DNA of 64,000 nt from Hydra vulgaris (Eukaryota > Cnidaria > Hydrozoa > Anthoathecata > Hydridae). How positions within the stretch are numbered: position 1 is the stretch's first letter; the number at the start of each line of letters is the position of its first letter. The notes under the pieces were generated by a model, which worked only from the letters and a program-made list of their open reading frames with translations, was not told the DNA's origin and ran no database searches. This document shows, piece after piece, positions 38,616 through 38,865 of this stretch. The stretch covers positions 25,945,001-26,009,000 of the forward strand of contig NC_088924.1 in assembly GCF_038396675.1 (NCBI RefSeq), given 5' to 3'. The position numbers and the translations under genes were made by a program.

Positions 38616-38707
38616 TATATATATATATATATATATATATATATATATATATATATATATATATATATATATATATATATATATATATATATATATATAT
38701 ATATATA
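38616..38707. repeat. (TA)n microsatellite
   Basis: About 45 TA units abutting the palindrome. Confidence 0.98.
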
Positions 38708-38736
38708 ATTAGTAAAAAACACTTATCTAACTTTTA

Positions 38737-38778
38737 TCTTCTACTCGGAGTTTCACCATTGCTGGATCATCAGGAAGA
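38737..38778 (-). ncRNA. Hammerhead ribozyme motif (HHR-3), mirror of HHR-2
   Basis: The left palindrome arm read on the minus strand has the same sequence as HHR-2, so all core nucleotides are present. Predicted cleavage is 3' of the nucleotide at 38742. The 5' ends of HHR-2 and HHR-3 face each other across the palindrome centre. Confidence 0.8.
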
Positions 38779-38780
38779 AC

Positions 38781-38822
38781 TCTTCCTGATGATCCAGCAA
38801 TGGTGAAACTCCGAGTAGAAGA
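38781..38822 (+). ncRNA. Hammerhead ribozyme motif (HHR-2), type I with minimal stem III
   Basis: Stem I is UCUUC (38781-38785) with GAAGA (38818-38822). CUGAUGA is 38786-38792. Stem II is CCA (38794-38796) with UGG (38801-38803), capped by a GNRA loop GCAA, with a U-U pair at its base (38793/38804). GAA is 38805-38807. Stem III is ACU (38808-38810) with AGU (38814-38816), loop CCG. The cleavage nucleotide is A38817 (GUA obeys NUH). It is the same length, 42 nt, and architecture as HHR-1. No PLE coding sequence is adjacent, so it may be a solo pLTR or a retrozyme-like element. Confidence 0.82.
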
Positions 38823-38865
38823 TAAAAGTTAGATAAGTGTTTTTTACTAATTAATTATTGCTCTG

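Follow-up and report, generated by a model that had tools for sequence, protein, structure and literature searches.

Two kinds of Penelope-like retroelement provide the closest described comparison for the sequence reported here. In PAc, a Poseidon-type element of Anolis, a hammerhead ribozyme lies by the border between the terminal repeat (pLTR) and the open reading frame (ORF), the enzyme cuts each DNA strand and extends both, preferring AT-rich DNA, and reverse transcription starts at two internal RNA sites, the interval between them constituting the "tail" (PMC11167929). Mostly unprocessed RNA is used, and in vitro ribozyme cleavage is unnecessary for insertion (PMC11167929). In the rotifer Adineta vaga, Penelope elements have both direct and inverted pLTRs and form head-to-head pairs of 5'-truncated copies, with a tail on one inverted pLTR, a palindromic inverted junction and simple AT-rich targets (PMC3846280). 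Inverted pLTRs with palindromic junctions, two-site priming on both strands and the use of uncleaved RNA have all been published for other Penelope elements. Penelope-like elements and Terminons carry minimal type I hammerheads, which are small, lie in the pLTR and have a short, near-palindromic stem III (PMC7761336, PMC6466107, PMC6155905); reviews report that those of Penelope elements act as dimers, and a 2020 review still called their role a mystery (PMC7761336). Retrozymes, defined by tandem non-coding hammerhead repeats and circular RNA, include an animal non-LTR kind with type I hammerheads in small multi-copy DNA and tandem repeats of 150-450 bp (PMC7229834).

The window (the whole 64,000-nucleotide stretch of Hydra vulgaris DNA analysed here) contains a perfect palindrome of 73 + 2 + 73 bp, whose arms at 38706-38778 and 38781-38853 are reverse complements without a single mismatch around a centre AC at 38779-38780. 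This is as the original prediction described it, and the limits given there for the palindrome, 38706..38853, are correct, but the element itself reaches 38921. Its parts are as follows.

38618..38705, no strand: left flank, (TA)n target, in which a target-site duplication would not be distinguishable
38706..38921, no strand: entire insertion, a head-to-head pair of retroelement ends, with unit positions 1-73 on the minus strand at 38778-38706 and 1-141 on the plus strand at 38781-38921
38706..38778, minus strand: left pLTR arm, the short end; hammerhead sense on the minus strand at about 38737-38778
38779..38780, no strand: centre AC, readable as belonging to the right copy (unit = AACTCTTCC)
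38781..38853, plus strand: right pLTR arm; hammerhead at 38781-38822, predicted cleavage at 38817/38818
38854..38921, plus strand: tail extension, on one end only; identical to the sequence separating the upstream pLTR from the ORF in locus L053
38922..38994, no strand: (TA)n target, right flank

Relative to the arm, the left copy starts at +1 and the right copy at -2. At the outer ends, the right copy runs through a 68-nt tail to 38921, and the left copy ends at 38706.

We suggest that a Penelope-like retroelement has very probably left a short insertion here in a (TA)n microsatellite, made of two ribozyme-end cDNAs joined head to head. All the features named above for Adineta vaga recur in this family, but here ORF-less ribozyme-end pairs are abundant, joins are concentrated at a single site and insertion is mostly into (TA)n, differences that hold against the available text of that report (PMC3846280). 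With PAc the family shares a hammerhead by the pLTR-ORF border, an AT-rich target, a two-start tail and uncleaved RNA as the apparent main substrate. The PAc results, as far as the accessible account goes, are in vitro biochemistry, whereas ours are genomic junctions, and the hammerhead here opens the arm, with about 120 nt separating it from the ORF region that follows (PMC11167929). The arm is likewise close to the minimal type I hammerheads in size, placement and stem III, but positions 10.1/11.1 are U-U, and the copies at this locus are head-to-head, not tandem (compare the available parts of PMC7761336, PMC6466107 and PMC6155905). Finally, the type I hammerhead and the high copy number recall the retrozymes, but we find inverted pairs and a coding parent element of which the arm is part, and no tandem non-coding hammerhead repeats of the retrozyme kind or size (PMC7229834, in its available text).

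The identity of the arm as a pLTR is seen most directly in locus L053 of the same genome, where copies in direct tandem flank a 723-aa ORF, at 93 nt on its upstream and 167 nt on its downstream side, and another full unit is in the opposite orientation. The pLTRs thus occur both direct and inverted around the ORF, the hammerhead motif lies within the pLTR, and one of the two inverted ends bears the tail extension in 32 of the 34 distinct pairs whose ends can be seen. Pfam gave no reverse transcriptase match on the 723-aa ORF and no GIY-YIG match on two C-terminal ORFs of the arm's family, so the Penelope assignment rests on anatomy, the hammerhead and a weak GIY-YIG match in a relative. YRDD and GIY-YIG-like motifs can be recognised by eye. 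In shorter loci two opposed 5'-truncated units meet mid-way, and the window palindrome, with only two ribozyme ends, is the limit of this series. The original prediction had pointed to Penelope-like elements and had offered a replication byproduct as one option, and both suggestions proved right. Its other option, a new ribozyme-bearing mobile unit, does not fit an arm that belongs to a coding element and has hundreds of similar palindromes for company; nor is the inverted arrangement new, since head-to-head inverted pLTRs with palindromic junctions have been described for Penelope elements (PMC3846280).

The relative just mentioned lies at the start of the window.

1..30, no strand: left inverted repeat of a second copy, cut by the window edge; 30/30 identical to its partner at 1009-1038
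63..1040, minus strand: 3' part of a related Penelope-like ORF; PF01541 GIY-YIG at E 0.0034 on the C-terminal 140 aa, under the cut-off
1009..1038, no strand: right inverted repeat of the second copy
1069..1110, plus strand: second hammerhead, built on the same plan from different stems (RF00163, 19.7 bits), adjoining the related 5'-truncated copy and oriented inversely to the ORF of that copy

We recognise Penelope anatomy at 1-1110 because the inverse hammerhead, the truncated ORF start and the 30-bp inverted repeat match the published description (PMC3846280). The L053 protein is 48% identical to the window ORF over 314 aa (E 8e-92). A kinship of the two window hammerheads finds no support in their 3' flanks, for which 4793 of 20000 shuffles were as good, and would rest on the fold and the protein match. 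The partner of this hammerhead is not visible, as the sequence left of the window (L070) is mostly N. The arm sequence had no match outside this genome among viral contigs, genome contigs and plasmids, and the window's Penelope-like protein had no relative in viral contigs.

Read on the plus strand, the right arm has a conserved core, three stems and an NUH, as in type I hammerheads: stem I UCUUC (38781-38785), CUGAUGA (38786-38792), stem II U-CCA-GCAA-UGG-U (38793-38804), GAA (38805-38807), stem III ACU-CCG-AGU (38808-38816; 3 bp with a 3-nt loop), H17 at A38817 and the second strand of stem I, GAAGA (38818-38822). The cleavage position proposed from the outset, 38817/38818, agrees with this layout. 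The accompanying claim that each arm holds every conserved position and three complementary stems stands for the core, stems and NUH, but not for 10.1/11.1, which close stem II and form an unpaired U-U mismatch in all three hammerhead sites of the window. At 1069-1110, H17 is U (position 1106). Across 115 hammerhead sites, a count in which sites are repeated and loci overlap, H17 is A in 95 and C in 20. Positions 15.4/16.4 covary between C-G and T-A in several variants among these sites, but two variants with five sites each (ACTCCAAGT and ACGTGCTGT) disrupt this pair.

A covariance-model scan had been proposed with the original prediction. The isolated arm matches RF00163 at 19.4 bits (E 0.006), but this is below the gathering score of 34, as are the 19.7 bits of the site at 1069-1110, and none of the 21 Rfam matches listed for 38600-38960 (361 bases, E<=10) is a hammerhead. 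Those 21 include microRNA and other hairpin models, all under their cut-offs, and a scan of the whole window gave no match at the gathering threshold. With a three-stem descriptor loosened to permit an unpaired 10.1/11.1, three sites are found in the window (both arms and one at 1073 on the plus strand); among 3354 dinucleotide shuffles, 15 gave one site and none gave two. Outside this genome, a looser pattern matched 17 stretches of genome contigs and 5 of viral contigs, about the number expected by chance by our estimate, and was set aside, three stems being present in none of the 22.

Querying the 911.5-Mb, 15-contig genome with 60 bp of the arm gave at least 48 matches, 40 of 422 candidates being scored; of the 48 listed, 47 are identical over at least 58 bases, and most form inverted pairs with interiors of a few bases to more than 3 kb. 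We examined 19 stretches with arm matches, partly chosen for a visible close pair, together with the left edge of the window, and in most of the copies read two 5'-truncated units face each other head to head within (TA)n. Among five loci with a single listed arm match, an opposed partner is present in L024, L025 and L046 (in L046 a tail piece only), and none was seen within the 3 kb examined at L039 and L044. The lone arm of L039 (1501-1641), which has a tail, begins at the ribozyme 5' edge directly beside (TA)n.

The inverted pairs were measured in stretches of which 15 had been chosen as palindromes and 4 as cleavage-site palindromes. Thirty-eight pairs were obtained from 36 of 39 sources (L086, L088 and L091 yielded none), and 37 are distinct once L074, a repeat of L067, is dropped; L053, L055 and L056, in which one end is an internal pLTR, were excluded from the end count, leaving 34. 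The outer ends of these are long/short in 32 pairs, mid/short in one and short/short in one, the short end being about 73-78 nt and the long end about 141 nt. Both flanks are TA-rich in 25 pairs and at least one in 32. A left start of 41 in L077 is probably an alignment trim. This long/short rule fits well with the two reverse transcription start sites of PAc (PMC11167929).

A search of the genome for other inverted ribozyme pairs, which had also been proposed, returned hundreds of similar palindromes. Those with identical outer 12-mers number 40, 46 and 352 for spacers of 0-30, 31-61 and 62-92 nt, against 0, 0 and 1 in reversed controls; edge-to-edge joins belong to the last bin, which includes some joins elsewhere. 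Such exact patterns overlook diverged copies, and some palindromes are carried inside larger repeats, so that counts exceed events. A pattern written for the edge found at least 500 palindromes on each strand. In 22 pairs, drawn from arm-selected stretches and the window, 20 of the 44 starts fall within -5..+1 of the arm. For the 41 starts at or before +1, a uniform distribution predicts 0.12, though copies with a truncation within the arm are under-sampled. In 49 listed edge-pattern junctions, 91 of 98 starts fall in -2..+1, a pattern blind to starts inside the arm. The 49 centres hold 32 distinct sequences, which argues that many of the joins are separate events. Junctions often have filler or shared bases, and 28 of the 49 have filler that is not element sequence.

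Joins at the cleavage site are few. CTTCTAGAAG, common to 10 of the 40 palindromes of the 0-30 bin, is readable as joins at the cleavage nucleotide; the three compared with their flanks, L089-L091, have 1.2-1.8 kb of flank in common and are not separate events, and the exact product-to-product join CTTCGAAG occurs in 1 of the 40. Since cleavage-site joins are few and partly not independent, the copied RNAs seem to have been mostly uncut. Some unusual junctions are identical on different chromosomes (C8:68156117 and C11:4367901; C1:68534261 and C8:65105549); either larger repeats carried them or the palindrome was copied as such. The pile-up of joins at the ribozyme edge appeared in none of the papers covered by our search, which for the minimal Penelope hammerheads were reviews; the object and its arrangement are already known.

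Because the joins pile up at the ribozyme edge and TATAA lies 29-30 nt upstream, we place the putative RNA start at the AA that immediately precedes the ribozyme. The RNA would then have its 5' end at the ribozyme's 5' edge and would open with the ribozyme. TATAA is found 29-30 nt before A(-2), within the family's own sequence, in 7 of 10 distinct upstream stretches, the stretches compared being only those that contain TATAA, in an AT-rich genome; of the other three, a G-C subfamily has TATAA at 27 nt and two have different sequence. A reverse transcriptase is not expected to halt on leaving structured RNA at its 5' side, and the end of the template would therefore explain the pile-up better. 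On such a start the transcript would carry the ribozyme at about nt 3-45 and would lose roughly its first 40 nt on cleavage. The arm sequence directly after the AA is TCTTCCTGATGA.

The insertion might arise as follows. A TATA box 29-30 nt upstream would direct transcription from the AA adjoining the ribozyme, and the element's enzyme would cut both strands of the (TA)n target. Copying would begin at two different internal RNA sites, as in vitro for PAc, and so set the short and the long end. If copying began in the pLTR closest to the 5' end of an RNA, it would traverse the uncut ribozyme as far as that end, and joining of the two short cDNAs would follow; internal starts of this kind would yield exactly the short and long ribozyme-bearing arms observed. 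We offer more tentatively, as a possibility that falls somewhat short of probable, the wider proposal that a 5'-terminal ribozyme below a TATA-driven start, combined with internal priming through the uncut ribozyme, has generated hundreds of palindromes that record the start, with cleavage unneeded for, and perhaps opposed to, integration in the animal. The hundreds of ribozyme-only head-to-head insertions would then document, in vivo, the points at which copied RNAs ended, a record that indicates a single site at the ribozyme edge and only weakly the cleavage site.

Other routes to the palindrome would have to account for the same junctions. One cDNA or antisense RNA might fold at the template end, prime itself and copy its own arm, a change to the joining step only. 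The perfect arms, the tiny centre and the sequence GAAGAACTCTTC, which could snap back at the junction, would all suit such a fold-back, and self-priming has been proposed for Penelope palindromes (PMC3846280). A copied arm should match the end of the first, yet the outer ends differ in length in 32 of 34 pairs, in a way that matches two reverse transcription start sites; as PAc has two such sites (PMC11167929), and as 28 of 49 junctions hold filler foreign to the element, we consider fold-back improbable. It is very improbable that the palindrome is itself a mobile unit spreading as such, whether a ribozyme MITE or a retrozyme. Its hundreds of copies and the few identical junctions at different places, some on different chromosomes, would speak for this, but 32 of 49 centres are distinct, L075/L076 and L089-L091 share 1.2-1.8 kb of flank, and longer pairs with ORF pieces grade into the palindrome.

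A DNA transposon whose terminal inverted repeats resemble hammerheads by chance would also be multi-copy with inverted ends, but the interiors are two opposed truncated copies, and in L053 the same repeats are also found in direct tandem on either side of the Penelope-type ORF; we regard this as scarcely credible and have dropped it. There remains the slightest chance of an assembly or library artefact, since the palindrome is known here from the assembly; an artefact would hardly place 352 palindromes with the same outer sequence and differing centres in one bin, against 1 in the reversed control.

On the activity of the ribozyme the evidence is mixed. The minimum-energy folds of the 42-nt and 73-nt arm are not hammerheads; for the 42-mer the hammerhead is at -2.3 kcal/mol and the minimum-energy fold at -3.1 kcal/mol. 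Two 42-nt copies cofold unconstrained into a double hammerhead (-16.6 kcal/mol), to which we give little weight because the site at 1073 forms none in the same cofold and 85 of 500 shuffles gain as much from dimerisation. The 148-nt palindrome transcript folds into a single hairpin at -122.6 kcal/mol, so the competition between self-cleavage and a 73-bp duplex foreseen in the original prediction holds on paper, and we would expect no cleavage from the locus's own full transcript, its ribozyme being locked in the hairpin.

The hammerhead may be inactive throughout the family, a reading that the shuffled dimers make somewhat less remote but that we still think unlikely. In its favour, the U-U at 10.1/11.1, the scores beneath the Rfam cut-off, the monomer folds and the uncut ribozymes of joined copies in the edge bin stand beside the dimerisation result. 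On the other side, the core is retained in two window sites despite differing stems, a related family has G-C at 10.1/11.1, an axolotl hammerhead with U-U at the base of stem II reached 22% cleavage in an hour (PMC7229834), and the PAc hammerhead cleaves only with its protein (PMC11167929). The canonical G10.1-C11.1 hammerhead of the related family, in the same genome, lies at 788-832 on the minus strand of L065 (RF00163, 22.8 bits, likewise under 34); L049 and L050 also contain it, being the same place in the genome.

The window holds further repeats. A 941-aa LINE-type open frame at 4338-7163 on the plus strand has RVT_1 (E 3e-34) and endonuclease matches, a Tc3-type transposase fragment (HTH_Tnp_Tc3_2) lies at 8012-8608 on the plus strand, and broken pieces of a different retroelement ORF lie at 8600-11022 on the minus strand. 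These pieces have no Pfam reverse transcriptase match; by their YVDD and GIY-YIG-like stretches, recognised by eye, we presume them to be Penelope-like. Long inverted repeats, perhaps transposon ends, pair 2977-3136 with 3850-4011, 11280-11427 with 13995-14164 and 63368-63454 with 63796-63882, and tandem repeats occupy 29371-29575 (11 bp), 49323-49532 (42 bp), 55031-55282 (84 bp), 58309-58412 (52 bp) and 60892-60975 (42 bp).
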